Of a stretch of 64,000 bases of DNA, positions 3,922 through 17,787 are shown one piece after another. How positions within the stretch are numbered: position 1 is the first letter of the stretch; each line of letters starts with the position of its first letter. The notes beneath the pieces were generated by a model. It saw only the letters and a list, made by a program, of their open reading frames with translations, was not told where the DNA came from and searched no databases. The position numbers and the translations under genes were made by a program. Source of the DNA: Bacteroidales bacterium (GTDB lineage Bacteria > Bacteroidota > Bacteroidia > Bacteroidales > VadinHA17); NCBI GenBank assembly GCA_022865305.1, contig JALHSP010000147.1, forward strand, positions 124,001 through 188,000, read 5' to 3'.

Positions 3922-4617
3922 TTACTGCAGAAAAGCAGTCAAAGTATCCATATTCAGCATGTTTAAATAGAGAATTCCCTGAGCAACGAATCTGACAATA
4001 CGTGAAAGTCCAAAAAGAAGGTACAGCCTGAACGGGTATTTAAATAAGCTTACAGCGATAACAACCATTGAGAACGGAGATAATGGAAAAAGGGCAGAAA
4101 TAATGATAAATGCACCTCCCCATTTCCTTACCATAGAGATATACTTGTTTAGTACACGCTCGGAATAGGCTTTTATTCTTTTTGTTTTTGTTAACCCGTA
4201 TCCGATAAGATATGAAAGTGCTCCGCCAAGATAGGAGAGGATACCAAATAAAGTCAGAAATAAAAAGGGAGAATTAAATTTTCCTGACCAGATAATGAAA
4301 AGATCAGGAGGGATCATGCCAAGGAATGATTCGGAAAGCATAAAGATAACTAAAACAAGCGCATCCGAAAGATTATCAGTAATATACTTAAAAATAGCTT
4401 TGAAATCAATAAGATACTTACCGGCTAAAATGAAAGGTGTCAGGATCAGCGCATAAATGACAACTATTTTAAAAGCTGTCCACAACATATAGCCATATAC
4501 ATCCCTCTTTAAATTATCGCGGTGATGTTCTTTTAATCTTTGCCAGAAATTATTACTCTCCATTTTCCTTGCAGCTAAATGCGGTCTTTTCAAAAAAATC
4601 CCGCCAAAGATATACAT
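3922..4617 (-). CDS. VTT/SNARE-associated-type membrane protein (YqaA/DedA-like)
   Basis: A 231-residue integral membrane protein. Spans are visible near residues 45-70, 82-103, 113-140, 165-190 and 195-215. The central segment with ESFLGMIPPDLFIIW and the glycine-rich GILSYLGGALSYLIGYG stretch is typical of VTT-domain (DedA/YqaA/TMEM41-like) proteins, a superfamily that includes lipid scramblases and flippases. The upstream Met at 4617 gives 18 extra basic residues. A second Met at 4563 (MESNN) may be the real start. The gene lies 5 bases after the FMN-binding gene on the same strand, so the two probably share a transcript. Confidence 0.8.
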   Translation of the reverse strand: MYIFGGIFLKRPHLAARKMESNNFWQRLKEHHRDNLKRDVYGYMLWTAFKIVVIYALILTPFILAGKYLIDFKAIFKYITDNLSDALVLVIFMLSESFLGMIPPDLFIIWSGKFNSPFLFLTLFGILSYLGGALSYLIGYGLTKTKRIKAYSERVLNKYISMVRKWGGAFIIISALFPLSPFSMVVIAVSLFKYPFRLYLLFGLSRIVRFVAQGILYLNMLNMDTLTAFLQ

Positions 4618-5214: not shown

Positions 5215-5417
5215 CAAAATATCTAAGAACTTTTCATATTTCACAATTAGATACAATGATATATTATTGACTTTATGTGTGATATATTGTATTTTTGATA
5301 ATAAAGCAGTAATGACAGTTTAGAATATTAAGGTAAAAAAAATGAGTTTTAAAAGACCGTTATTCTGTGCAATTATTACATTTTAATATGACGAATTTCA
5401 CTAACTATTTAAATATT

Positions 5418-6158
5418 ATGAGATATTGTAAATATTCTTATCCATTCTTTCTTTTATTCCTCACGATCGCCGCTTACAATATGGATATAAGTGCGCAGAC
5501 GATCGGTACTGAACCGGGTTCTACAACTGTCAAAAAATGTCAGGATTTTAAAATAAGCGGTGATGGAAGCTCTGATAACTGGAAGAGTGCCGAATGGTTA
5601 TATTTGTCTCAGAGGGAGCAGAATACTAAACCATATCAGACTAAAGTCAAGGTTCTTTATTCCGGGACAGGAATCTATTTTCTTTTCGAATGTGAGGATA
5701 AAAAGCTGACTTCAACAATGAAAGCCGATAATATGGATCTATGGAATGAAGATGTTGTTGAAGTTTTCCTATGGACTGATGAGAGTTTCCCTGTTTATTT
5801 TGAGTATGAAATTTCACCTTTGAATTATGAACTGCCTATTATGGTACCTAACTACAAGGGGAAATTTTTAGGCTGGCTGCCCTGGCATTATGAAGGTGAA
5901 AGGAAAATACAGCATGCCACATCCGCAGTGGGAGGGAAGAAGGAAAGCGGAGCTTCTGTAAATGGATGGATTGCTGAATTTTTTATACCATTTAAATTGC
6001 TGGCTCCTTTGAACCAGGTTCCACCTGTTTCAGGAACAAAATGGAGGGCAAATATGTATCGAATTGATTACGACAATGGCGCAACACATTTTACCTGGCA
6101 AAAAACTACCAGATCCTTCCATGAATACAATAATTTTGGTACATTTATTTTTGAATAG
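5418..6158 (+). CDS. secreted CBM9-like carbohydrate-binding protein
   Basis: The start at ATG 5418 is chosen because it puts a clean signal peptide (MRYCKYSYPFFLLFLTIAAY) at the N-terminus. A start at 5367 would place 17 extra residues before it. The mature part has the family-9-like carbohydrate-binding (DOMON-type) layout: an early DNWKSAEW strand, then KVKVLYSGTGIYFLFECEDK, then LWNEDVVEVFLW, and near the end WRANMYRIDY and FHEYNNFGTFIFE. Proteins of this type bind sugars or haem and are often exported in Bacteroidota. No catalytic domain is attached. No operon partner is visible. Confidence 0.75.
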   Translation: MRYCKYSYPFFLLFLTIAAYNMDISAQTIGTEPGSTTVKKCQDFKISGDGSSDNWKSAEWLYLSQREQNTKPYQTKVKVLYSGTGIYFLFECEDKKLTSTMKADNMDLWNEDVVEVFLWTDESFPVYFEYEISPLNYELPIMVPNYKGKFLGWLPWHYEGERKIQHATSAVGGKKESGASVNGWIAEFFIPFKLLAPLNQVPPVSGTKWRANMYRIDYDNGATHFTWQKTTRSFHEYNNFGTFIFE

Positions 6159-6237: not shown

Positions 6238-6858
6238 TTATTTGAATATCCTTGAATTACTATTGAAATAAACTTCGGGATCCCAGCTTTCAAAACATAT
6301 CCGGCTGATATCGTTTTGTAAGTCTAAACATTCGGAGGGGAAATATTGTCCTAATCTTTTACATACCTCAGCATGATGACTTAAATCGCCTGATATTCGA
6401 ATGATGATTTTGATTCCCTTCCCACTTGGAGAAATAAATGCTACCCTAACGAATGGATTTTTATAAATATGGTCCTTGAATTGCTGAACGTCCGGAACAT
6501 CATCGTAATCAAGGACTAATAATTTACTATAAGCAACAAGACCAGCATTACATCTTCTGATAAATTCTCCTGAAAAGCAGATTGCAGGTAATCGTAGTTT
6601 AAGATGTTTTTCACCTTGCCGGATGCGTGTTACTAATTCTTTTGAGTGACCATCACAGATCCTTGCCACAACATCAGCAAGTACCAGGTACTCGGGATTT
6701 ATTAAAGAAATCACATTACGGAACACGCTCACCTTGTCGGTAGTGGCAGTCTCCACCGATGGAGATAATGTCAGAGAAGGTACCTGAACAGTCTTAATTC
6801 TGGTTTTAGTGGCATTCTCTAAAAGCAAGTTGTCAGTATTGTAAAGAGATCCTTCCAT
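6238..6858 (-). pseudogene. VirE N-terminal-domain (BT4734-like) protein, apparently truncated
   Basis: The 206 residues match the primase-like N-terminal module of Bacteroidota mobile-element VirE/BT4734 proteins. Visible features are LLVLDYDDVPD with an acidic metal-type cluster near residue 115, SPSGKGIKIIIRI near 143-156, and DISRICFESWDPEVY near the end. In full-length family members this region is followed by a linker and a helicase or DUF3987-type domain, for several hundred more residues. Here the protein stops straight after the module, so a C-terminal truncation is likely. It may still be translated. It looks like a relic of an older mobile element near the tRNA-Arg insertion site. 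Confidence 0.6.
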
Positions 6859-7062: not shown

Positions 7063-7155
7063 TAACTTTGATGACAGAAATGAAAAGTTAAAAGTACATT
7101 TAGCCATCTGTTTTGGTCTGTAAATGAGTACTTTTGTTACACATATAAACGAGTT
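7063..7155 (+). promoter_or_regulatory. promoter/leader module, copy 1
   Basis: TAACTTTG at 7063-7070 is a perfect Bacteroidota -7 box, with ATTG at 7039-7042, 20 bases upstream, as a weak -33 box. The following leader (ACAGAAATGAAAAG and AAAAGTAC) and a perfect 29-bp stretch at 7127-7155 recur at 15335-15394 in front of the SEFIR gene. Copy 1 has about 30 extra bases in the middle. The rest of the 6859-7220 gap shows nothing else I can name. Confidence 0.5.
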
Positions 7156-8280: not shown

Positions 8281-8322
8281 GATCCCGAAGGGATTCAAAC
8301 CCCCAACCTTCTGATCCGTAGT
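8281..8322 (-). repeat. attachment-site repeat (truncated tRNA-Arg 3' part)
   Basis: Forty-two bases identical to 17585-17626. They correspond to tRNA-Arg nucleotides 32-73, from the anticodon loop to the acceptor end. No 5' half of the tRNA follows, so this copy is not a functional tRNA. It marks the left junction. Confidence 0.88.
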
Positions 8323-8359
8323 TTGAAAACTGCCATTTTCATCATTTTTCATATTCATT

Positions 8360-8398
8360 CAATACTTATTGTAAATTACTGATATTCATAAAGTATTG
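8360..8398. repeat. inverted repeat inside the left end of the element
   Basis: CAATACTT at 8360-8367 and AAGTATTG at 8391-8398 are perfect inverted copies, between the attachment repeat and the integrase promoter. This could be an excisionase or repressor site. No protein match can be shown. Confidence 0.3.
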
Positions 8399-8420
8399 TT
8401 GAAATCTATTTAACATTACT

Positions 8421-8452
8421 TTTCATTTATATTCATTTATATACTATATTTG
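8421..8452 (+). promoter_or_regulatory. integrase promoter
   Basis: TTTC at 8421-8424 and TATATTTG at 8445-8452 are spaced 20 bases apart, fitting the Bacteroidota -33/-7 promoter pattern. The transcription start would be near 8459, which excludes an integrase start at 8454 and favours the ATG at 8472 or 8475. Confidence 0.55.
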
Positions 8453-8467
8453 TATGCAAATTGTATG
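8451..8467. repeat. integrase arm-type repeat, left
   Basis: A 17-bp sequence built of two GTATGCAA-like units. It is identical to 17513-17529 near the opposite end of the element. It overlaps the last bases of the integrase -7 box. Arm-type integrase binding and autoregulation are inferred from this placement. Confidence 0.5.
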
Positions 8468-8471
8468 TACA

Positions 8472-9698
8472 ATGATGGATAGATTTTCACTTGCAGGAAT
8501 AACAGTGTCTGTAATATTTGATACCAGGCGGACCAAAGAGGATCTTACCTTCCCGGTTAAATACAGGGTAACTTATAACCGTAAACAGGTTTATTATCCT
8601 TCGGGAATAGACCTTACAGAAAATCAATGGCAAATTATCGGAACAACAAAGAATAAAGAACTTGTCGATCTGAGAGAATTGATCCAGATAGGCTTCGATA
8701 AGGTGAAGGCCCATATTAAGGAGATGACACGGGAAGAGGGCTTCTCATTCCAGGGATTGAATAATAGACTGAAACAGGGAAAACAAAATTCTGTTCTATC
8801 TGAATTTTACAGCAAGATTGACAGACTGGAAGAGGAGGGAAGGCCGGGAACTGCATCAGCCTATCGGTGTGCAATAAACAGTATACAGAAGTTTACCAGT
8901 CTCAACCTGAAATTCGCTGACATTTCCCCGGAGTGGTTACGAAAGTATGAAAGACATATGATAGAGGAGGGCAGGAGCATGGCAACGGTAGGTATCTATA
9001 TGAGGGCCATCAGGGCTATCATAAACGAGAACAAGACTTTTATAACTCCAGCTCAATATCCATTCGGGAGGGGTAAATATGAGATCAAGAAGGGATCTGG
9101 AAGAAAGATGGCTTTAACCTTATCTCAAATCAATGAGATTCTAAAACTTGACCTTCCAACGGAGGAGGCAAGGAAATATCGAAGCCTCTGGTACTTCAGT
9201 TTTCTGACCAATGGGATTAATATTAATGATATGCTTAGACTGAAATATTCAAATATAGAAAATGGAGAAATATTATTTCTAAGGGGTAAGACAGTCAGGA
9301 CAAATCCCAATCAAAAAGAAATCAGGGCAACTATTCTGCCAGAAATGAAGACCATCATTAAGAAATGGGGCAACCATGACCGGAATCCCGATAACTATAT
9401 ATTTCCCTTTCTTACTAATAGCATGACACCCGTTCAAATCAGAGTAAGGGTTCAGGATGTTACCAGGAGAATCAATAGGCGAATGAAGACAATAGGTGAA
9501 ACTCTTGGTTATGGAAGTATTTCGACTTATAACGCAAGGCATAGCTACGCATCAATCTTAAAACATCATCATGTTGATTTAGCTTTCATTTCAGAGAGCC
9601 TTGGGCATTCAGATTTGAAAACAACAGAAGCCTATTTATCATCATTCGACAATGTAGAAAGGGCAAAAGTTGCTTCAATACTTACAAATAATAAATAA
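8472..9698 (+). CDS. tyrosine recombinase / site-specific integrase
   Basis: This 408-residue Bacteroidota-type phage integrase catalyses insertion and excision at the tRNA-Arg anticodon loop. The N-terminal part has the arm-binding strand pattern (VIFDTRRTKEDLTFPVKYRV). A SAM-like core-binding domain follows (about 95-190), then the catalytic domain. Catalytic features, numbered from ATG 8472, are ARHSY with R356, LGH with H379, and the nucleophile Tyr388 in TEAYL. The first catalytic box reads NGININDMLRLK, so the usual Arg of TGLR is Asn. Loss of this arginine is known in some Bacteroidota integrases such as IntDOT. An ATG at 8454 is in frame but lies upstream of the predicted transcription start. 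Confidence 0.93.
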   Translation: MMDRFSLAGITVSVIFDTRRTKEDLTFPVKYRVTYNRKQVYYPSGIDLTENQWQIIGTTKNKELVDLRELIQIGFDKVKAHIKEMTREEGFSFQGLNNRLKQGKQNSVLSEFYSKIDRLEEEGRPGTASAYRCAINSIQKFTSLNLKFADISPEWLRKYERHMIEEGRSMATVGIYMRAIRAIINENKTFITPAQYPFGRGKYEIKKGSGRKMALTLSQINEILKLDLPTEEARKYRSLWYFSFLTNGININDMLRLKYSNIENGEILFLRGKTVRTNPNQKEIRATILPEMKTIIKKWGNHDRNPDNYIFPFLTNSMTPVQIRVRVQDVTRRINRRMKTIGETLGYGSISTYNARHSYASILKHHHVDLAFISESLGHSDLKTTEAYLSSFDNVERAKVASILTNNK

Positions 9699-9702
9699 TA
9701 CA

Positions 9703-10263
9703 ATGGGAAAGTTTAGAATATCAGAATCGGTAGCAGCTGGACTTGACAAAGAGACTAGTAAAATCCTTCGGGAAAATGATTCTGTAGGACCAGCATCAAA
9801 AGAAAACGAAGCGAGATTTAAACGGGAGTCATTAAAAATTAAACTGTATAATCAGCTGAATGAATTACTCAAGAACAAAATCCCGATACGATATTTATTT
9901 GATGGGGATATATCTGATAAGTATGTATTAAAAAAAGAATCTGCCATAATTGGACTCTTTGAAAAATACGGATCAGAATTTCCCGGAGAGACTTTGCCCT
10001 CATGGAGAGAGAGATGGATGGATAACGGAAAGATACTTAAGCCTATCAAAATTGATAAGTTTAAGGATGGAAATAATAAGCACTTACTTCTTACAATGCT
10101 ACATGAAGCACACCCTGATATGAAGGTTAATAAAATTGATGAATATATAAGATGGAAATGGGGACTAAAGTCATTTACTTCTGATGTATCAAGATATATT
10201 AAAAAGGGTGTTTCTATACATAACGAAACGAAAAATTTGAGAAAAATATTAAAACCTGACTGA
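9703..10263 (+). CDS. hypothetical protein following the integrase
   Basis: A 186-residue protein not assigned to any family. ATG at 9703 lies four bases after the integrase stop. An in-frame TTG-like start at 9670 would overlap the integrase. The sequence is basic and rich in Lys, Asn and Ile, with no membrane segment and no cysteine cluster. The C-terminal half (HEAHPDMKVNKIDEYIRWKWG to DVSRYIKKG) could form a small helical domain. Close coupling to the integrase suggests a role in recombination, excision or control. That is inference from position only. Confidence 0.7.
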   Translation: MGKFRISESVAAGLDKETSKILRENDSVGPASKENEARFKRESLKIKLYNQLNELLKNKIPIRYLFDGDISDKYVLKKESAIIGLFEKYGSEFPGETLPSWRERWMDNGKILKPIKIDKFKDGNNKHLLLTMLHEAHPDMKVNKIDEYIRWKWGLKSFTSDVSRYIKKGVSIHNETKNLRKILKPD

Positions 10264-10272
10264 TTTTAAAAT

Positions 10273-10369
10273 CCACATTGCAGCCACATTGCAGCAAAAT
10301 TTCTTATTTGCCTGTAATTCAATAAAATAATTTTTACATTTTCTTTATTTTATTGCACCTACATCGCAG
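10273..10369. repeat. iteron-like direct repeats upstream of the replication genes
   Basis: CCACATTGCAG occurs twice in perfect tandem at 10273-10283 and 10284-10294. A degenerate third copy, CTACATCGCAG, is at 10359-10369. The AT-rich stretch between (10299-10350) and the position just upstream of the HTH and polymerase-like genes fit either a replication origin or an operator for the HTH protein. Confidence 0.45.
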
Positions 10370-10408
10370 ATGTCATGCTTTTCTTAGCTCTTATTAAAGC
10401 ACTAAAGT

Positions 10409-10744
10409 ATGACACAAATAATTCAACTCAATTATGAAGAACTTGAGGCAGCAATTAAAAACTGCCTTCGGGAAGCAGTTGCAGAAATAAAAGCAATCCC
10501 CGACCTTCCGAAATTACCAGATAGGTGTACCCTACCGGAAGCCTGTGAGATAACAGGACTTTCAAAAAGCCTTATTTATAAGTTGTGCATGGATGGTGCT
10601 ATACCACGAGAGAAGTATGGTAAACGTCTTGTATTCTCCCGAAAAGCCTTAAATGAATGGGTACAGGCCCGGACTGTAATAATTCCTTCCCCTGATGAGA
10701 TAATGACAGACAGACTGTCTGAAACAGCTAAAAAGAGGGTGTAA
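10409..10744 (+). CDS. excisionase-like helix-turn-helix protein (HTH_17 type)
   Basis: A 111-residue protein. Residues 37-88 (TLPEACEITGLSKSLIYKLCMDGAIPREKYGKRLVFSRKALNEWV) form the MerR/excisionase-like HTH_17 fold with its typical C-terminal wing and EWV helix. The first 35 residues are acidic and helical. Proteins of this family in Bacteroidota mobile elements act as recombination directionality factors or transcription regulators. Its stop codon overlaps the next gene's start at 10744 (TAATG), so the two are translationally coupled. Confidence 0.85.
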   Translation: MTQIIQLNYEELEAAIKNCLREAVAEIKAIPDLPKLPDRCTLPEACEITGLSKSLIYKLCMDGAIPREKYGKRLVFSRKALNEWVQARTVIIPSPDEIMTDRLSETAKKRV

Positions 10745-12081
10745 TGAGAAAGTCCATTCAGTTAATACCTGAAAAGGTTTATAGTGAATTGCCAACCATT
10801 TCAGAACTGATAAAACCTACAATTAAAGGATTCTCAGAAGATAACCTTAGGGAGATTATTTCAATAGTCGCCTGCCATGTGCGGAAAGATGAAGATGACG
10901 GGCCAGCTCCATTATCAATGACACATATCAAAAGGTTAGTACCCCAGGGAGATATGTATCTAACGGGGCTGATTGATTTGGAAGTCATTCACCGATTCGG
11001 ACAGTACATACCCGGGGAAGCCTGTTATCAGTATGACTTTGCCCCCGAATATAAAAGCAGGTACATTGCATTTCCTCTTGATAATGCAAAACTGATCCTA
11101 AGGATTGAGACAGTATGGGAAGAGCTACGGAAAGAGGCTTCAAAAGAAATCTGGGGACATTCCTCGCAAACCAGATACCTCAGACAATTAACCATTGAAC
11201 CGGAAGCATTACAGTTTATTGAACGTAATTATATTACTGATACCCATAAATTTAATTGTGCAGAAGCATCAGTGACAAGGATCTTAAATGGAGATATTTT
11301 TTATAAAATAGACAATACCTCAAAAAGATTTCATAGCAATGTTACTAACCTGGATAAGAATCTCAGACCTTACCTCAGGGTCAATGGTGAAAGGCTTGTT
11401 AACGCCGATATAAAGAACTCCCAACCGTACCTCAGCACCATAATTTTGACTAATCCAAGTAAGATTTCATGGCTAACTGAAAACACTGCATTTGCTATGT
11501 TGCTACAAAACCTGAAAGTATCACCAAATCAAGACGTTAAAAATTATATTTCTTTTGTCATTTCAGGCCAACTTTATGAGTATTTAATGACTGAATTTAA
11601 CCTTTCTAGGTATGAAACAAAACGGCATGTACTGAGGATCCTATTTGCTTCTAATCGTATGCCAAAGGAAGAAATTAACCGCAGGTGCAGGCAGATATTT
11701 ATCAGGAATTTCCCGACTGTTCACCGGATATTCTCAAAAGTAAGGGGACATGAAAGAGGGGATAAATTCGCAAACTTCAAAAGATTCTCTATTCTCCTGC
11801 AAAGGATTGAATCTTACCTGATGCTCCATGTGATCCTGAAGAGGATATATAAAGAACTGCCTAAAGTGATAGCAATTACTATTCATGATTCAGTCATGAC
11901 AGGGATTCTCACAAATGATGTCGAGGCCGTCCGAAATATCATGATTGAAGAACTAACTTCTTTTGTAGGATTTCAACCCAAAATAGAAATTGAAGGATTA
12001 AGAATAGAGAAAAGAGGGAAGAAGAGTATGAATAAATCTATAAAGCAATATGATGCTACAAACCTTGTAAGTCTCAATTAA
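10744..12081 (+). CDS. family-A DNA polymerase-like replication protein without exonuclease
   Basis: A 445-residue protein whose C-terminal half carries the motifs of a PolA palm and fingers. Residues 196-211 (RFHSNVTNLDKNLRPY) parallel the PolA RLSSxxPNLQN segment. Motif A is ADIKNSQP with D222. The fingers helix has R289-x3-K293 (RYETKRHVLRILFASN). Residues 353-357 (QRIES) match the helix before motif C, and motif C is IHDS (H381, D382). There is no 3'-5' exonuclease domain. The first 190 residues are of unknown fold and may bind the origin or act in priming. I infer that it replicates the element after excision. It ends before a strong terminator at 12148-12198. Confidence 0.72.
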   Translation: MRKSIQLIPEKVYSELPTISELIKPTIKGFSEDNLREIISIVACHVRKDEDDGPAPLSMTHIKRLVPQGDMYLTGLIDLEVIHRFGQYIPGEACYQYDFAPEYKSRYIAFPLDNAKLILRIETVWEELRKEASKEIWGHSSQTRYLRQLTIEPEALQFIERNYITDTHKFNCAEASVTRILNGDIFYKIDNTSKRFHSNVTNLDKNLRPYLRVNGERLVNADIKNSQPYLSTIILTNPSKISWLTENTAFAMLLQNLKVSPNQDVKNYISFVISGQLYEYLMTEFNLSRYETKRHVLRILFASNRMPKEEINRRCRQIFIRNFPTVHRIFSKVRGHERGDKFANFKRFSILLQRIESYLMLHVILKRIYKELPKVIAITIHDSVMTGILTNDVEAVRNIMIEELTSFVGFQPKIEIEGLRIEKRGKKSMNKSIKQYDATNLVSLN

Positions 12082-12147
12082 TCAATGAAATGAAAAATTT
12101 AATTTTGGTCAAAAAAATAAACAGTTTTCGATGGTGAATACTGTCAG

Positions 12148-12198
12148 CTCCGGGCGGTCTTTTTTCCTGAGAGGTTTTTCAGCCGCCTGGAGTTTTTT
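12148..12198 (+). terminator. rho-independent-type terminator after the replication gene
   Basis: CTCCGGGCGG at 12148-12157 pairs with CCGCCTGGAG at 12183-12192 (nine of ten positions) and is followed by six T. It separates the replication module from the prohead-protease operon. Confidence 0.7.
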
Positions 12199-12243
12199 AA
12201 ATGAAAATATGAAATTTAAAGTAATAATTTAAAAATTGAAACG

Positions 12244-12450
12244 ATGGGAATTATAACAGAATCATTAAAAGATGCAGGTAGTTTTCAGAAGCATTTAACA
12301 CTGAGTAAGGTAATTTCAGACACAACGAAAGTCCGGGGAACGCAAGCTGCGGGATTGGCTCGGTTAATTTCTGCCGCCAAAATCAACACCTTGGGCAGAC
12401 AAATCTTTGATGGTATTACAAAATTTTTTATAAAACTAAGAAAGTCATGA
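12244..12450 (+). CDS. small hypothetical protein, first gene of prohead-protease operon
   Basis: A 68-residue basic protein of unknown family, predicted to be mostly helical, with a basic tail (KFFIKLRKS). It starts about 45 bases after the terminator of the replication module. Its stop overlaps the next start (ATGA at 12447-12450). Size, charge and position next to a prohead protease would fit a scaffold-like or capsid-interacting peptide, but nothing in the sequence proves it. Confidence 0.65.
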   Translation: MGIITESLKDAGSFQKHLTLSKVISDTTKVRGTQAAGLARLISAAKINTLGRQIFDGITKFFIKLRKS

Positions 12451-13013
12451 AAGACAAAGAAAACATTTACAAAAACAGAATTTTTTCAGTTACTTCTGAA
12501 ATCGGGCAGGGGCAGTTACCACACCGCGCAACGGTTTTGGAAAGTTACGGTTTTGTATGCCTGGTAAAGGTGCAAAAAGCATATATATCAGGCGGTTTCA
12601 GTGAATATGGGATTTATCGGATTATGTTGGATGCCAACGGAGTTGAAATTCTGCAAAGTATGATGATTAATTATGAAACAACTCAGGGTCTCCCATCCCG
12701 CTATGGCGCACCCGAAGCAGAGGTAAAAGCAAAATTCGATAAGATAAAAGGCCAAATGCAGCTCGCAGACTCAGAAGCGGAAGTTGCTAAAGACCGGAAG
12801 ATCAAAGAAGATCAGGCAAGACAGGAAGTTGAAAAAGTGAAGATTGAAAATTTTACCTTCATCAAATCTGAACTTAATGAGATTAACATAAAACTGAAGG
12901 AGCTTATAAAAGACCAGCCGGCAAAGAAATCATTCAACGATAAGACTATTCGGGGTCTGATAACTGATTTATACACCTTGGAACAAATAAGATTACAGTT
13001 AATTAAAAAATAA
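12447..13013 (+). CDS. hypothetical protein with C-terminal coiled coil
   Basis: A 188-residue protein with no recognised family. Residues 1-85 look like a small beta-rich domain (NRIFSVTSEIG, YGFVCLVKVQKAYISGG, YGIYRIMLDANG). Residues 85-185 are charged and helical with a heptad-like pattern (EAEVAKDRKIKEDQARQEVEKVKIE region), a likely coiled coil. It overlaps the 68-residue gene by four bases and ends five bases before the prohead protease gene, so the products are probably made together. A structural or scaffolding role is possible. Confidence 0.7.
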   Translation: MKDKENIYKNRIFSVTSEIGQGQLPHRATVLESYGFVCLVKVQKAYISGGFSEYGIYRIMLDANGVEILQSMMINYETTQGLPSRYGAPEAEVKAKFDKIKGQMQLADSEAEVAKDRKIKEDQARQEVEKVKIENFTFIKSELNEINIKLKELIKDQPAKKSFNDKTIRGLITDLYTLEQIRLQLIKK

Positions 13014-13018
13014 TTATT

Positions 13019-13654
13019 ATGGAAAGAGAAATTCGAAATTTAGAAACGCCCCTTTCAGAACTGAGGGCGGTTCCTGAAAGCAGAGATGTAACAGGATACG
13101 GAATTGTCTTTAACAAAAGGTCAAAAGACCTGGGGGGCTTTATTGAAATAATTCTCCCTTCAGCGGTTGAGGGGGTTATCCCTCAGAGTGATGTTTTGGC
13201 ACTCCTGAATCATGACATTAACAGGGGGATACTTGCACGCAGCACCAGGGGCAAAGGTTCTCTTAAACTCGAAACGGATCCCCGAGGCGTAAAATATTCT
13301 TTCACAGCACCGAAAACAGCACTTGGTGATGAAGTTATCGAAGGTATAAAGCGTGGTGATATTCGTACCAGTTCATTTGCTTTCAATGTTTCAAAGGGTG
13401 GGGAGTCATGGGAGCGGAGTTCCGGATATGCAGTAAGGACAATTTCTAAATTTGCAGCTTTGTATGACGTTTCAATGGTGTACCGGGAAGCATATCCCGA
13501 CACAACGGTTGCTTTGAGAAGTCTTCAGGAATTTGAAAAGAAGAAGTCAGTTACCGATAACATGACCCCCCATCAAAAGGAAATATACCACACCCATCAG
13601 ATGTATAAAGATGGTTATACCTTAAGGAATGGAAAATGGATAAAATTTAAGTAA
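13019..13654 (+). CDS. HK97-family phage prohead protease (peptidase S78)
   Basis: A 211-residue protein with the S78 assemblin-like fold that cleaves scaffold domains during HK97-type capsid maturation. Catalytic candidates are visible: H65 in LLNHD, the S118-S119 pair in GDIRTSSFAF, and an acidic residue around D150 in ALYDVSMV. The tail motif AYPDTTVALRS is typical of the family. The normal partners (portal and major capsid protein) are absent from this element. Instead it follows two small unknown genes and precedes a DNA-binding protein by one base. It may act on a helper phage's capsid precursor or interfere with it. Confidence 0.88.
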   Translation: MEREIRNLETPLSELRAVPESRDVTGYGIVFNKRSKDLGGFIEIILPSAVEGVIPQSDVLALLNHDINRGILARSTRGKGSLKLETDPRGVKYSFTAPKTALGDEVIEGIKRGDIRTSSFAFNVSKGGESWERSSGYAVRTISKFAALYDVSMVYREAYPDTTVALRSLQEFEKKKSVTDNMTPHQKEIYHTHQMYKDGYTLRNGKWIKFK

Positions 13655-13655
13655 G

Positions 13656-13979
13656 ATGACAACAAAACTAACAGTAAAAGCAGCAGTTTATCATCCTGAA
13701 CTCCTCAGTGTTGCAGAATTTTCCCGCAAGTTCGAAGTGAGTAAGCCAAAGGTGTATCAGTTAATCGGCGAAAGCAAGCTGAATCTGCACTATATATGCG
13801 GTATTCCATACATTGACATAACCGAAAGAGCTGTTTTAGACCAGGCATTGTCTTATAAAAGCAGACATCAGGGCGACTGGGCACGTGGCGGCACTTCTAT
13901 CATTAAAAAGCTTAAGAGTAAACCGGATACCTGGGAAGCTGCAATGGATTTAGCCTGGATTAAGGATCAGGAAGCATAA
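13656..13979 (+). CDS. small DNA-binding (winged-HTH-like) protein
   Basis: A 107-residue protein. Residues 15-63 (LLSVAEFSRKFEVSKPKVYQLIGESKLNLHYICGIPYIDITERAVLDQ) resemble an HTH_17/MerR-like DNA-binding fold. The C-terminal 40 residues are charged. It starts one base after the prohead protease stop and is the last gene of the operon. It could be a regulator. It could also be a small-terminase-like DNA selector, as satellites often carry one beside capsid-hijack genes. The latter is inference from context. The 13980-14166 gap after it holds only a short hairpin near 14040-14055. Confidence 0.65.
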   Translation: MTTKLTVKAAVYHPELLSVAEFSRKFEVSKPKVYQLIGESKLNLHYICGIPYIDITERAVLDQALSYKSRHQGDWARGGTSIIKKLKSKPDTWEAAMDLAWIKDQEA

Positions 13980-14166
13980 TTCGTTTACTACTGTAAAACG
14001 TGTATGTAAATACGATACCGACGTGGTTTCTGGGACTCCGGTAAAAGATTTTACCTTACCCCCAGGCTTATTGTTTAGCTGTCAAATTGTTACATTAATG
14101 AAGGTATTTATTATATTGAATAGATTAGTATGCAAAAACTGTGTGAGGGATATACTACCCCTCAAA

Positions 14167-15159
14167 TTATAACTCGAAAGGAACATATAATTGATCTACT
14201 TCCTTAATATTAATTATATCAATATCTTTAGATAAACTAAATTGAGATCGTAAAAAATCACCCGATCTGTATTTGTCTTGATAGTAAATCTTTTTTAATA
14301 TTTTGGTTTCTGTAAGTGTTTGAATAATTCCTTTATCCAATTCCCGATTGAAAAATGGGAAGGAATATCCAATCACGACCAATGTTCTGGAATTTTTTAT
14401 AATATCCCTTGCTATCTCAATACTTCTTTGAAAAATATGATCTTTATCCGTTTCCCAGGCGAAAGTCAATAGATTTGTTAACTTTCCAGTACGGTCATAA
14501 TAATGCTTAAACAGCTCATCAAAACTTTTTTCTTTAAGTGAGAAATTATCAAAGATAGATCCTTCTTGATTTCTTGAATATCCGGCAATCCCATTTAGAT
14601 GTACGAGTGAATAATTGTTTATCTGTTGACCAGCCTCAGGATAATCCATATTGATATTTGGATAGAACCTTAAAATAAGTGGATATGATGGAAATATTTT
14701 ACATGCAATTTGGAATTGAAAATCATAATTCCAGTTTAAAATTTTAATTTGATTTGGGAATTTGACCCCATCTTCAAGAATTGTGGTTAAAAAGACTAAA
14801 TATCTTTTATCAATTTTCTGATTCCATCCCTGTTCAATAGAGAAATAAAGCGAAAGTAATTTTTTAACTTTGGCAAGATCCTTTTTATCTATTAGATAGC
14901 AATATTTTGCGAATGTGTCAACTGTATCAAAAAATTCGCTCCGCTCAGCTAACCATTGAAAATCTTTTTCTATATCTCCTGCAAGGTTTCTATTTACTGA
15001 GAGGTTTGCATATTCTTTAACTATTTGTTGTCCAATTCTCCGGAATGCATCAGGAAGTCCTTCTTTAATACTATTCCCCTTTTCATCTTTTAATGTTCTT
15101 ACAAGGGGAAGATCCTCTGCACTTGCTCCAGCTCCGATGAGATATGTAACTTTTGACAT
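14167..15159 (-). CDS. SIR2-like (NAD-binding) protein, probable defence effector
   Basis: A 330-residue protein counted from ATG 15159. The in-frame TTG at 15165 is less likely. The SIR2/Rossmann signature is present: YLIGAGAS at residues 6-13, NWNYD with N144-Y145-D146, LVHLNG with H187 in the place of the catalytic sirtuin His, and VVIGYSFPF around 261-269. Bacterial SIR2-like proteins of this type often deplete NAD+ in anti-phage systems (for example Thoeris ThsA and DSR). There is no SLOG or other sensor domain. It is divergent from the SEFIR gene. Its AT content and position inside the element suggest cargo acquired separately. Confidence 0.75.
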   Translation of the reverse strand: MSKVTYLIGAGASAEDLPLVRTLKDEKGNSIKEGLPDAFRRIGQQIVKEYANLSVNRNLAGDIEKDFQWLAERSEFFDTVDTFAKYCYLIDKKDLAKVKKLLSLYFSIEQGWNQKIDKRYLVFLTTILEDGVKFPNQIKILNWNYDFQFQIACKIFPSYPLILRFYPNINMDYPEAGQQINNYSLVHLNGIAGYSRNQEGSIFDNFSLKEKSFDELFKHYYDRTGKLTNLLTFAWETDKDHIFQRSIEIARDIIKNSRTLVVIGYSFPFFNRELDKGIIQTLTETKILKKIYYQDKYRSGDFLRSQFSLSKDIDIINIKEVDQLYVPFEL

Positions 15160-15334
15160 AAGCAAATGGTTTTAAATCATTATTGTTTTTTTGACTTAAC
15201 TCCAGTTTCTATCAAAATTAAACCTTAATTCTCCCAGATACAAAAATATTTGTTTTTGGCCCCAGAGCTTCATAAATTTGGATTCAATAATCAGCACGAG
15301 GTTTGCATTTAAAACCCTGTTCTTGGGAAATTAG

Positions 15335-15394
15335 TATCTTTGATTACAGAGATGAAAAGGCAAAAAGTACTTTTGTTACACATATAAACGAGTT
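15335..15394 (+). promoter_or_regulatory. promoter/leader module, copy 2
   Basis: TATCTTTG at 15335-15342 is a perfect -7 box. The leader that follows, including the 29-bp stretch 15366-15394, matches copy 1 at 7063-7155. It lies 119 bases before the SEFIR start. A very short frame of 11 codons starting at the ATG of the leader (MKRQKV...) is not conserved in copy 1, so a leader peptide is unlikely. The rest of the 15166-15512 gap is described under the cassette repeat. Confidence 0.5.
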
Positions 15395-15453
15395 ATAGTT
15401 AATTGCAAAAAGCTGCCTGTTATGACAAAATCCTGACTTGCTGCTAACTATAA
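15393..15453. repeat. nested inverted repeat (possible empty cassette)
   Basis: TTATAGTTA at 15393-15401 and TAACTATAA at 15445-15453 are perfect inverted copies flanking a 43-base stretch without a gene. They follow the motif GAGTTA, which recurs at 15458 in front of the SEFIR gene. The repeat is either a hairpin or the boundary of a gene-less cassette. Confidence 0.4.
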
Positions 15454-15512
15454 AAATGAGTTAGCGGTAACTTTCCGTGCCTTGAAACAACTTAATTTTA
15501 AACTAATACATT

Positions 15513-16724
15513 ATGGAAAAAATTACGACTGTTTTTATCTCTTATTCATGGGACAATGAAGAACATAAGAGTTGGGTCCTCAATTTAGCAAATAAATTAA
15601 CAGATAACGGGGTATATGTTCTTCTTGACAGGTTTGATCTTAAAGCAGGAAAGCCGATGACTCAATTTATGGAGAAATCTGTAAATAATTCTAACAAAGT
15701 ACTGCTTATAATGACTCCCAACTATAAAGACAAAGCAGATAATAGAACTGGCGGAGTTGGTTATGAATATTCCATGATAACTCAGGAATTGTACCTAAAA
15801 CAAGACAATGAGAAGTTCATTCCAATTATAAGACAAGGTAATTATAATGAAAGTGCACCAAAATTCTTAAGCACATTAATTTCTCATGATATGAGAAATG
15901 ATTCAACCTTTGAAAAAGACTTCTCAGAATTAATAAAAATCATCTATGATGAACCCGAGATTAAACGACATCCTCTAGGTAAAAAACCAACATTCGTTAT
16001 AAATACTAATCTTGCCTCGAATGCAATATTAATTGATGATAAATTAAATTTAGAGAAAAGTAGAATGACAACTTATGCTAAGTGGATAATAGATATAGAA
16101 TTACAATCATTGAATGATCTTTCAATCCCAGACTTATATGCAGCAATTACAGCTTATACTCCTGTTGATAAAGAAGGTAAACAACTTCTTCCTTCTATCC
16201 TTATGACAAAATATAAAATAAGTCATCATCCAACTATTCTATATGAGATACCTCTTCACCAATATTTTGCCTATAATCATTTAATACATGAACAACTTAA
16301 AATTCAGCAAGGATTAATTCATTATGAGTTTTCAGAATATAGCAACAATGATTTTTGGTTATTGTTTTTATCCCGGCCATTCTCCTGCTTATTCTATCTT
16401 TTGATAATTATTAAAGCAATCCATGATAAATTAACTAAGGTTATAGATATAAAAATCCGTGTAAGTTTTGAGTCTGATAAGAGATCATTGCTTTATGGTA
16501 AACATTCTCCGTTCAATTTTGGGATTATTTTTGAGCATTATGGAATCCCCAATAATAAGGCAGATGTGACTATAAAACTAAATTTAATTTCAAAAGATAG
16601 TGTTTTTAAAATGTTTGAAACGATTTACCATATGTTTGTTTCCGAAAATATACAATCAACAAGACCTTATGTATCAATAGACAGACAGCATTTTGATATG
16701 GTAACTGAAGAATTTTTGAAATGA
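15513..16724 (+). CDS. SEFIR/TIR-domain protein, probable anti-phage effector
   Basis: A 403-residue protein. Residues 5-155 form a SEFIR-type TIR-like domain with VFISYSWDNEEHKSWV, LDRFDLKAGKPM, FMEKSV, KVLLIMTPNYKDKAD and GGVGYEYSMITQEL. The C-terminal 250 residues are unassigned and include a hydrophobic patch near residues 285-300 (LLFLSRPFSCLFYLLIII). SEFIR proteins have been described as single-gene bacterial defence systems with NAD-depleting activity. The C-terminal domain would be the sensor. The gene has its own promoter module and is flanked by inverted GTTAGCGGT-type boundaries, so it looks like an exchangeable cassette. Confidence 0.8.
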   Translation: MEKITTVFISYSWDNEEHKSWVLNLANKLTDNGVYVLLDRFDLKAGKPMTQFMEKSVNNSNKVLLIMTPNYKDKADNRTGGVGYEYSMITQELYLKQDNEKFIPIIRQGNYNESAPKFLSTLISHDMRNDSTFEKDFSELIKIIYDEPEIKRHPLGKKPTFVINTNLASNAILIDDKLNLEKSRMTTYAKWIIDIELQSLNDLSIPDLYAAITAYTPVDKEGKQLLPSILMTKYKISHHPTILYEIPLHQYFAYNHLIHEQLKIQQGLIHYEFSEYSNNDFWLLFLSRPFSCLFYLLIIIKAIHDKLTKVIDIKIRVSFESDKRSLLYGKHSPFNFGIIFEHYGIPNNKADVTIKLNLISKDSVFKMFETIYHMFVSENIQSTRPYVSIDRQHFDMVTEEFLK

Positions 16725-16810
16725 ATTTAGTCCTTAAAATAAATGGCAACCGCTAACATGGTGCTAAAGTAAATAAGTTTGTCACAGTTTTTGCTTCCTA
16801 AATAATTCAA

Positions 16811-16893
16811 AAGAAGCGGCATCTCCTGTGGAATAATTAAGTCTCGCTGTATACTATCTGTCGAAAGATAGTGGAAGGAAATGCCGCTTTCTT
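16811..16893. other. structured palindromic block, possible ncRNA
   Basis: Bases 16811-16822 pair with 16881-16893 through 12 base pairs with one bulge. Four more pairs (TCCT 16824-16827 with AGGA 16876-16879) extend the stem. Inside is a perfect 7-bp hairpin (16853-16859 with 16866-16872, 6-base loop). About 25 bases stay unpaired. No reading frame covers the block. It could be a small RNA, a MITE fragment or an RNA processing site. Confidence 0.4.
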
Positions 16894-16896
16894 ATT

Positions 16897-16964
16897 AAAA
16901 AAAACCAGCTCCGGTGACCTCGTGCAAGAGTATTATAACGTAATCGCTATAATTCCAGAGCTGG
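16897..16964 (-). terminator. terminator of the small membrane protein gene
   Basis: CCAGCTC at 16905-16911 pairs with GAGCTGG at 16958-16964. On the minus strand the stem is followed by eight T (16897-16904). The loop is long and contains a small AT hairpin. It lies 33 bases beyond the stop of the leftward gene ending at 16997. Confidence 0.45.
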
Positions 16965-16996
16965 CTATAGTTGTTTCTATTTAGTTGAAAAATATC

Positions 16997-17329
16997 TTAT
17001 AAATGTAAACTCATTTTCATAAGTTTTGCCGGTAAATACCCTGTAATTCCTAAAAATGCAAAAAGGATTAGAATTATATCATTTATATTGAAGTTTGTTG
17101 ACGAATAATTCTGAATAGCACCAACTAAGCTGGACAGGACTATCCATAGCAGAATCCAACCTAATAGTGCTCCTAAAAAATTGAAAATATATTGGTGAAT
17201 TAGAGAAACTCCCTTTGGTTTTGTGCAGTGATGCATATCAAAAGCGAAATAAGAGCATAACCAGGAAGCTACTAAAGCTATCCCCCAAAAAACGCATATA
17301 AACCAACATGAACTAAAAAGATTTTCCAT
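16997..17329 (-). CDS. small membrane protein of unknown function
   Basis: A 110-residue protein with three likely membrane spans, near residues 8-30 (CWFICVFWGIALVASWLCSYF), 48-72 (FNFLGALLGWILLWIVLSSLVGA) and 82-102 (IILILFAFLGITGYLPAKLM). No family is recognised. It is the last gene before the tRNA end of the element and reads towards the SEFIR gene. A role as membrane partner of the defence cargo, or as an exclusion protein, is only a guess. Confidence 0.55.
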   Translation of the reverse strand: MENLFSSCWFICVFWGIALVASWLCSYFAFDMHHCTKPKGVSLIHQYIFNFLGALLGWILLWIVLSSLVGAIQNYSSTNFNINDIILILFAFLGITGYLPAKLMKMSLHL

Positions 17330-17512
17330 TTTTCTAAGTTTTTATTTAACAATAATTTCATTTAAAATGGTAGACTATTAAAGTCAGGTATTTATATTGT
17401 ATCCGTAAGGAATAATGAAGTCAACTTTCAAATACGAATTTCGTTCAATTAAATATTCAAACAAAATTTATTTTACCTCAGCGCGTTTTCATAGTATGGT
17501 AAGGATTAGAGA

Positions 17513-17529
17513 TGTATGCAAATTGTATG
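17513..17529. repeat. integrase arm-type repeat, right
   Basis: Seventeen bases identical to 8451-8467, 55 bases inside the right attachment repeat. The sequence continues as a further GTATGCAAA-like unit. Occurrence near both ends and nowhere obvious between supports an integrase arm site. Confidence 0.5.
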
Positions 17530-17539
17530 CAAATAATAA

Positions 17540-17572
17540 AGCCACTAACTCAGTTTATCTTTGTAAGTGGCT
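17540..17572 (-). terminator. element-supplied terminator downstream of tRNA-Arg
   Basis: AGCCACT at 17540-17546 pairs with AGTGGCT at 17566-17572. On the minus strand the stem is followed by a T-rich stretch. It lies 11 bases after the tRNA 3' end and would replace the original terminator now left at 8236-8272. Confidence 0.5.
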
Positions 17573-17583
17573 CATTCTCTGGG

Positions 17584-17657
17584 TGATCCCGAAGGGATTC
17601 AAACCCCCAACCTTCTGATCCGTAGTCAGATGCTCTATTCAGTTAAGCTACGGGACC
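17584..17657 (-). tRNA. tRNA-Arg (anticodon ACG)
   Basis: On the minus strand, 74 bases fold as a full cloverleaf. The acceptor GGTCCCG pairs with CGGGATC (one G-U) with discriminator A. The anticodon stem TCTGA/TCAGA encloses the loop CTACGGA, giving anticodon ACG. The T-loop is GTTTGAATC, with T at position 56 where most tRNAs have C. No CCA is encoded. This gene is the integration target of the neighbouring element, and the element regenerates the complete tRNA at this end. Confidence 0.95.
17585..17626 (-). repeat. attachment-site repeat within intact tRNA-Arg
   Basis: The second copy of the 42-bp direct repeat, identical to 8281-8322. It spans tRNA nucleotides 32-73, so the crossover probably occurs in the anticodon loop or just 3' of it. 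Confidence 0.88.
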
Positions 17658-17787
17658 TTATTACTTTATGCGGACGCAAATATAGTACATATTTTTATTT
17701 TGAGGAATATTAATTACTTTTATTTGCTTGAATTTGTGAAAATATGAATTGGTAAATAATTGATATTCAGACATTAATAACTGTATT

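Follow-up and report, generated by a model that had tools for sequence, protein, structure and literature searches.

Proteolysis in HK97-type phages removes the delta domain, the N-terminal part of the coat protein that serves as a scaffold, once the prohead has assembled (PMC12749128). What might such a protease do where no coat protein is encoded beside it? The question is raised by a locus in a Bacteroidales bacterium of the VadinHA17 lineage (assembly GCA_022865305.1, contig JALHSP010000147.1, positions 124,001 to 188,000); this stretch of 64,000 nucleotides (nt), the whole of the DNA analysed, is called the window below. At 12244–13979 it carries an operon with a prohead protease of family S78, which lies within an integrated element at 8281–17626. 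We consider it probable that the element is a satellite of the phage-inducible chromosomal island (PICI) or phage-inducible chromosomal minimalist island (PICMI) type, presumably a Bacteroidota one, and that its protease acts on the procapsid of a helper phage, redirecting or poisoning head assembly.

A prohead protease operon with no head genes

The operon and the hairpin ahead of it comprise the following features.

12146–12199, plus strand: terminator-like hairpin with U-run (z −3.39 against shuffled sequences)
12244–12450, plus strand: p68, 68 amino acids (aa), an open reading frame (ORF) call for which family and relative searches found no relatives
12447–13013, plus strand: p188, 188 aa, with a beta part and a long helix predicted by a low-confidence model
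13019–13654, plus strand: S78 prohead protease, 211 aa (Pfam, PHROG, NCBIfam and alignment)
13656–13979, plus strand: p107, 107 aa, possibly winged-helix-like (model; sub-threshold matches only)

The four ORFs (68, 188, 211 and 107 aa) are tightly packed on one strand, separated in order by a 4-nt overlap, a 5-nt gap and a 1-nt gap. An earlier note on this DNA had described just such a packed operon around an S78 protease, and the ORF calls, the gaps and three family libraries agree with it. The hairpin sits between the replication gene of the element and the 68-aa ORF; as the operon is set off in this way from the preceding gene, it may be a transcription unit of its own. A scan for sigma-70 promoters gave a chance-level result (8 found, 7.4 expected).

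The protease matches Pfam PF04586 at 5.8e-31 (108.3 bits, against a curated cut-off of 21), PHROG 80 ‘head maturation protease’ at 4e-35 and NCBIfam TIGR01543 at 1.3e-19. His65 and the pair Ser118-Ser119 are invariant across three aligned proteases (alignment A2), and we take His65 and Ser118/Ser119 to be the catalytic residues. By these matches the gene is an intact ORF for an HK97-type S78 prohead protease, whose activity is predicted. The protease domain with these His/Ser motifs is shared with tailed phages of the HK97 type; the portal–protease–capsid operon in which those phages carry it is absent from the element.

The statement of the earlier note that the operon holds neither portal nor capsid was upheld by a six-frame search of 8281–17660 with home-made profiles (E ≤ 1; the control prophages L120 and L121 were both detected), in which TerL, portal, connector, major tail protein, tape measure, chaperone and TerS gave no match. 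The coat profile matched the protease ORF only, an effect of protease sequence in that profile: each of the home-made profiles for coat and S78 is contaminated with the other, some phage ORFs being fusions of protease and coat. The element thus lacks the set of major capsid protein, portal, connectors, TerL and TerS that defines a capsid-forming PICI (cfPICI), and it has neither the portal–protease–capsid order nor the pieces of it expected of an HK97-type prophage remnant. TerS was found neither by profile nor in the comparisons made with p107; Rpp was not searched for.

The partners of the protease are less easily placed. A single-sequence model of p188 (pLDDT, the predicted local distance difference test score, 66) has strands at residues 14–73 and a 66-residue helix. 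The beta-domain and coiled-coil protein of the earlier note is recovered as far as strands and a long helix are predicted, but at low confidence, and fold searches gave no match at E ≤ 0.001. No relative of p188 turned up in IMG/VR, among phages or plasmids, or in 98 further genomes of the order. The model of p107 is winged-helix-like at residues 16–66, with residues 1–13 and 66–107 below pLDDT 50; its sequence matches are all sub-threshold (HTH_17 0.16; PADLOC mad1 0.0083), its fold search returned 6ama and 4j2n among other matches, none at E ≤ 0.001, and neither IMG/VR nor the phages searched hold a relative. It had been described as a small DNA-binding protein starting directly after the protease; the 1-nt gap is confirmed, while the DNA-binding fold is predicted at low confidence only. 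At best, p107 is a winged helix of the Xis/BldC kind. The further suggestion that it resembles a small terminase subunit is abandoned, as sequence and fold comparisons give no recognisable TerS. Searches for p68 consisted of the family libraries and one comparison across the elements and phage loci.

The element around the operon

The operon is flanked by the following features.

8281–8322: attL-like 42-nt direct repeat, an exact copy of 17585–17626
8454–9698, plus strand: tyrosine integrase, 414 aa (PF00589 6.5e-14; PF13102 1.1e-13)
9703–10263, plus strand: integrase-contiguous gene (start at 9670 TTG or 9703 ATG possible)
10409–10744, plus strand: AlpA/excisionase-like HTH_17 regulator, 111 aa (PF12728 1.3e-11; PF05930 AlpA 4.5e-4, slightly below the family cut-off)
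10744–12081, plus strand: putative polymerase-like replication protein, 445 aa (motifs D-x3-SQP and IHDS, alignment A3)
14167–15165, minus strand: weakly SIR2-like protein (PADLOC SIR2 0.0014; no Pfam match)
15513–16724, plus strand: bSEFIR defence protein with a TIR/SEFIR domain (PADLOC bSEFIR 1.3e-72; PF13676 3.7e-20)
17585–17626: attR-like repeat, within the 3′ part of a tRNA-Arg(acg) gene (17582–17657, minus strand)

The exact 42-nt direct repeats, spaced 9304 nt apart, delimit an element of 9.3 kb. Comparison within the genus is consistent with insertion at the tRNA gene: tRNA-Arg(acg) adjoins the orthologue of the right-flank gene in seven of eight same-genus loci scanned, and in one genome of the genus (G1024, L202) about 1.1 kb, free of element DNA, separates tRNA-Arg from the end of the left-flank gene (5367–6158). 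The integrase-contiguous gene can begin 4 nt past the integrase stop and has no significant relatives; homology among the genes in this position across elements is unsupported (hhalign probability at most 1.4%). For the 445-aa protein, Pfam, PHROGs and NCBIfam offered no name and matched no primase family, and IMG/VR held no relatives; it matches in 18 other genomes of 294. We infer a polymerase-like protein with a role in replication from its D-x3-SQP and IHDS motifs, which recall family A polymerases. Searches of PDB sequences with the polymerase profile and with the protease returned nothing beyond seven chance-level qacR entries.

With a terminal integrase, attachment-site (att) repeats, a length of 9.3 kb and an AlpA-type regulator followed by a putative replication gene, the element has the layout of PICI/PICMI satellites, those of the PICI-like kind measuring about 7–20 kb (PMC13376191). 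We file it as PICI-like for working purposes and not as a proven member. The order integrase, variable gene, AlpA, polymerase recurs at L082, L083, L089 and L161. The last of these (G431:C18, 11266–17802) is a PICMI-like minimal form: a 6.4-kb element at tRNA-Ala, flanked by 92-nt repeats (93% alike) and encoding an integrase, a 337-aa protein, an AlpA-like, an endonuclease-like and a polymerase-like protein, and a weakly DUF5681-like protein of 90 aa.

Phage relatives of the protease

Relatives of the protease are encoded at 46 IMG/VR loci, the closest 19 (L002–L020) being 52–61% identical. At nine phage loci that were mapped (TerL, portal and coat identities judged by eye), the protease lies in a head operon, with portal before it and coat after it or fused to it. 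As the nearest relatives (52–62% identical overall) sit in phage head operons, we regard the protease of the window as taken from a phage, on the evidence of sequence similarity. The closest named locus outside its own genome is from Proteiniphilum; this and the domain types of the integrase point to Bacteroidota as the host group. A search of 395 genomes of the phylum with the single protein found its own genome alone; the Pfam profile found more. Within the family of the host, strong S78 matches occur in four of 88 genomes, namely its own and, at four loci, three others. These four loci are prophage-like. In L214, L215 and L216 the S78 gene is followed by a coat gene, identified by the coat profile, and in L217 by a 403-aa ORF that the home-made coat profile missed; portal lies upstream of S78 in L215, L216 and L217, while L214 ends there at a contig edge. 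Possible helpers thus exist among the relatives of the host.

The same relatives raise the possibility that the window holds a decayed prophage, its protease left over from a deleted head operon, and the earlier note had named as its own refutation the finding of this protease in ordinary prophages with portal and capsid genes in the same order. Homologues do occur in that order, at the nine mapped phage loci and at the prophage loci of the family. The other three genes of the operon, however, were found in none of the phage sets searched (p68 having been searched for less widely), and remnant status is therefore not demonstrated. Intactness and tight packing of the operon also speak against decay, as does the exact att repeat, and together with the gene orders of the elements described next they make this origin quite improbable.

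Other elements with S78-family proteases

A Pfam S78 search of 295 genomes of the order found 22 places in 19 genomes. Seven are strong (E < 1e-20), and all seven were inspected: four are canonical portal–S78–coat loci (L118, L120, L121 and L122), and the other three are integrase–AlpA elements without TerL or portal, these being the window, G792:C133 (L119/L176) and G457:C12 (L117/L165). Among the 15 weaker places, L123–L127 were screened with profiles and L123, L125 and L127 were mapped gene by gene; L126 is a canonical prophage by the profile screen, and L127 (G792:C1) is a fourth element. Altogether, an S78-family protease without TerL or portal on the available sequence occurs in four elements from three genomes, the three besides the window element coming from two genomes related to its own. 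Profiles for TerL, portal, connector and major tail protein matched nothing in the window element, L165 or L176, in a search that detected its controls, nor in L127. Two of the elements (L176 and L127) have a TerS or TerS-like gene and one (L165) has a coat gene. The three further elements came to light through the S78 search itself, so their number is no measure of frequency.

In L176, integrase, AlpA and protease are 53%, 34% and 42% identical to those of the window element. Its protease is followed by a 119-aa gene, a second S78-like protein (3940–4476, minus strand; diverged, PF04586 2.4e-7) that possibly makes up a pair of proteases with the first, TerS (PHROG 83, 2.5e-17) and, with a PHROG ‘virion structural’ match at 1.5e-6, a gene of 637 aa; relatives of the latter adjoin tape measure genes in control prophages. 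A DnaD-like loader is also present. No att repeat was found, and as the element reaches near the contig end the absence of other genes from it is less sure. IMG/VR yielded no relatives for the L176 protease or for the integrase pair.

L165, at tRNA-Arg(tct), is 12.6 kb long and bounded by 46-nt repeats (91% alike). Its genes run integrase, 129 aa, 309 aa, AlpA, replication initiator, 112 aa and second recombinase, then tail chaperone, tape measure, S78 protease and coat, with three short ORFs on the opposite strand. The coat protein, so assigned by PHROG 617 and Pfam PF05065, has 329 aa, against 395–463 aa in 11 coat proteins from canonical loci. It begins just ahead of an FS(L/I) segment present in nine of those 11, and the protease stop lies 17 nt upstream, from which it follows that the N-terminal region is absent. 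By analogy with HK97, the missing region would be the delta domain. Five IMG/VR relatives of this coat lie in phage head operons, with TerL and portal shown in L218–L221; on the available stretch of L222, whose ORFs are split, neither was found. Three distinct unbroken relatives have 405–408 aa and retain the N-terminal region.

L127 starts at a contig end with a polymerase that shows 66% identity to the window protein across its final 76 residues. From there to tRNA-Arg(tct) it carries a 60-aa gene in common with L176 (identity 50% across 46 aa), a TerS-like gene (PHROG 83, 3e-4; 34% identical to the L176 TerS), genes of 70 and 108 aa, an S78-family protein of 197 aa (Pfam 22.5 bits against a cut-off of 21; PHROG 617, 6.7e-14; PHROG 80, 9.7e-6) and three small ORFs.

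The further phage genes of L165, L176 and L127 might be held to favour prophage decay. Deletion alone would not, however, produce the order chaperone–tape measure–protease–coat of L165, which matches no mapped canonical locus, or the order protease–protease–TerS–tail-type gene of L176.

Was the protease acquired once? A single clade of the window, L176 and L165 proteases was rejected in a tree test (approximately unbiased test, p 0.022) in which branches are long, 22 of 52 S78 rows had been removed by hand (duplicates, distant groups, very long branches, near-copies and the second L176 protein) and the L127 protein was left out. The result suggests separate acquisitions of the three sequences. 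Repeated capture of a head gene by related elements would, if right, speak for a function. Strong S78 matches are also commoner among genomes that carry this integrase (3 of 31) than in the rest (3 of 264; Fisher p 0.017), a post hoc and weak association that becomes 2 of 30 (p 0.083) without the window.

These counts bear on the idea that the element is an ordinary integrative island with the protease as a neutral passenger. Most of the regions inspected around related integrases and replication genes indeed have no S78 gene. Against this, S78-family proteases recur in four elements, three of them not one clade, and the ORF and its His/Ser motifs have been kept in the window although the nearest homologue is just 62% identical. 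We regard a neutral passenger as very unlikely.

How the protease might be used

The scheme we favour is that of a satellite. The element would integrate at tRNA-Arg by its own integrase, be switched on by its AlpA-like regulator and be replicated by its own polymerase-like protein, with the defence genes as cargo. A tailed helper phage would supply TerL, portal, coat and tail. The late operon would be built around the prohead protease from an S78 phage, and this protease would meet assemblies of the helper coat and cut the scaffold (delta) domain at the wrong time, place or rate. Because the delta domain is a scaffold that the protease removes, altered amount, timing or specificity of cleavage could shift head size or ruin heads; mistimed cleavage in the satellite would thus lead to a shifted head size or to blocked helper heads. 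A role as scaffold-like partner or substrate of the protease can be envisaged for p188 with its long helix, and p107 might regulate the operon. The L165 coat, without its N-terminal region, fits the same delta-domain target. The capsid-hijack reading of the earlier note survives in so far as a capsid-less protease operon lies in a satellite-like element and three further elements combine S78-family proteases with other head, tail or packaging genes, with no TerL or portal on the available sequence; the part it gave to p107 as TerS does not. A broader proposal, that an undescribed Bacteroidota lineage of satellites has repeatedly and independently captured prohead proteases against the delta domains of helpers, with neither portal nor large terminase and mostly without a coat, is put forward tentatively, as somewhat less probable than otherwise.

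Several observations weigh against this scheme. No helper phage is known for the element, and its own genome has no second S78 match and no PF04860 portal (other portal families were not searched). A shared cos or pac site might give a long exact match; between the element and 14 phage loci, exact matches reached at most 16 nt, against up to 18 in four host-DNA controls. p68, p188 and p107 have no significant relatives in the sets searched, and the exact operon is known from one genome. S78 genes occur in two of 20 regions around related integrases besides the window (drawn from 34 integrase places, several regions being shortened by contig ends) and, around matches to the replication gene, in none of 19. 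Contig ends truncate L176 and L127, the upstream half of the latter lying off its contig; the branches of the S78 tree are long; and the protease could be idle.

Alternatively, the operon might be an anti-phage interference cassette, stripping the scaffold of infecting S78 phages prematurely, in an element that moves by other means. The SIR2-like and bSEFIR genes adjoin the operon, whose place after the replication gene and ahead of the att end is that of defence genes in PICMIs (PMC10803314), and S78 phages are present in the host family (four prophage-like loci in three of 87 other genomes). The TerS or TerS-like genes of two other elements, and the coat and tape measure genes of a third, point instead to packaging and assembly. 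The defence-cassette and satellite readings differ in whether the element profits by transfer; we judge the former unlikely.

Comparison with known satellites

PICMIs of Vibrionaceae (PMC10803314) share with the window element an integrase, an integrase-overlapping or contiguous gene (the window gene stands in the position of iolg/icg), alpA, a replication gene, defence cargo, small size and a fixed site. As described there, the typical PICMI has no capsid-remodelling gene and its site is next to fis; the window element differs in having a prohead protease operon, in its location at tRNA-Arg and in encoding a polymerase-like protein where PICMIs have the primase (prim). The Gram-negative PICIs EcCICFT073 and PmCI172 (PMC6092414) likewise have int, alpA and replication genes, together with encapsidation genes, and some Gram-negative PICIs carry TerS or a capsid-protein homologue. 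Induction has been demonstrated for them, whereas the window element is known from its genes; in that paper, ‘protease’ appears a single time, in the reference list.

Head remodelling by satellites is known to employ Sid or TcaP, which are external scaffolds, CpmB, an internal one, or Ccm, a homologue of the coat (PMC10945586, PMC5052747). Ccm of SaPIbov5, which redirects head size, has a shortened delta domain, modelled as 44 residues shorter than that of the helper (PMC5052747, PMC8569155). Its target, as in the scheme proposed here, is a helper of the HK97 type with a delta-domain coat system. The SaPIbov5-like feature among our elements is the coat homologue without N-terminal region in L165; the window element carries a protease but lacks a homologue of the coat. 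A head maturation protease is also encoded by cfPICIs, cf-PISPs and PISP TG93 (PMC10690885, PMC13230959), the last of which combines it with capsid protein E, a small terminase and a regulator resembling MerR (PMC13230959). In these the protease comes with a capsid gene, to which cfPICIs add portal and both terminase subunits (PMC10690885, PMC13230959); the window element, L176 and L127, by contrast, show no capsid gene, and PISPs are plasmids. Among the matches listed in a literature search, mostly of non-subscription text, there was neither a satellite with a protease and no capsid nor a family of satellites in Bacteroidota.

The lone protease may point to a route by which parasites of phages interfere with the shell of their helper. 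If the scheme is true, a protease supplied without coat is a further point of attack on helper heads, head piracy would proceed by satellite-encoded proteolysis and not by decoy scaffolds or coats, and there is a group of phage satellites in Bacteroidota. The role of a head protease without a head is directly testable in HK97 or D3 head expression systems.

Further observations

In the window, an exact 29-nt repeat occurs at 7127–7155, to the left of attL and outside the element, and at 15366–15394, between the SIR2-like and bSEFIR genes; it may mark recombination or cassette exchange. Also outside the element, at 6238–6858 (minus strand), a 206-aa protein consists of a stand-alone BT4734-like/PrimPol N-terminal domain, possibly the leftover of another element at tRNA-Arg.

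In the wider S78 search, six of nine loci outside the genome of the window were inspected. L187 and L188, in both of which portal and TerL are present, are phages, and L191 has portal, connector and tail genes by profile. Seven genomes of family f192, all of one genus (G530, G617, G643, G690, G710, G939 and G956), have one S78 match each, and in L189, L190 and L192, three of the four f192 loci inspected, the home-made profiles show no portal or TerL. Are these loci domesticated phages, gene transfer agents or divergent phages? L187 itself (G574:C371, 3228–7687) is a phage-like contig with genes that, judged by eye, resemble those of sugar or sialic-acid biosynthesis, lying between TerL and portal.
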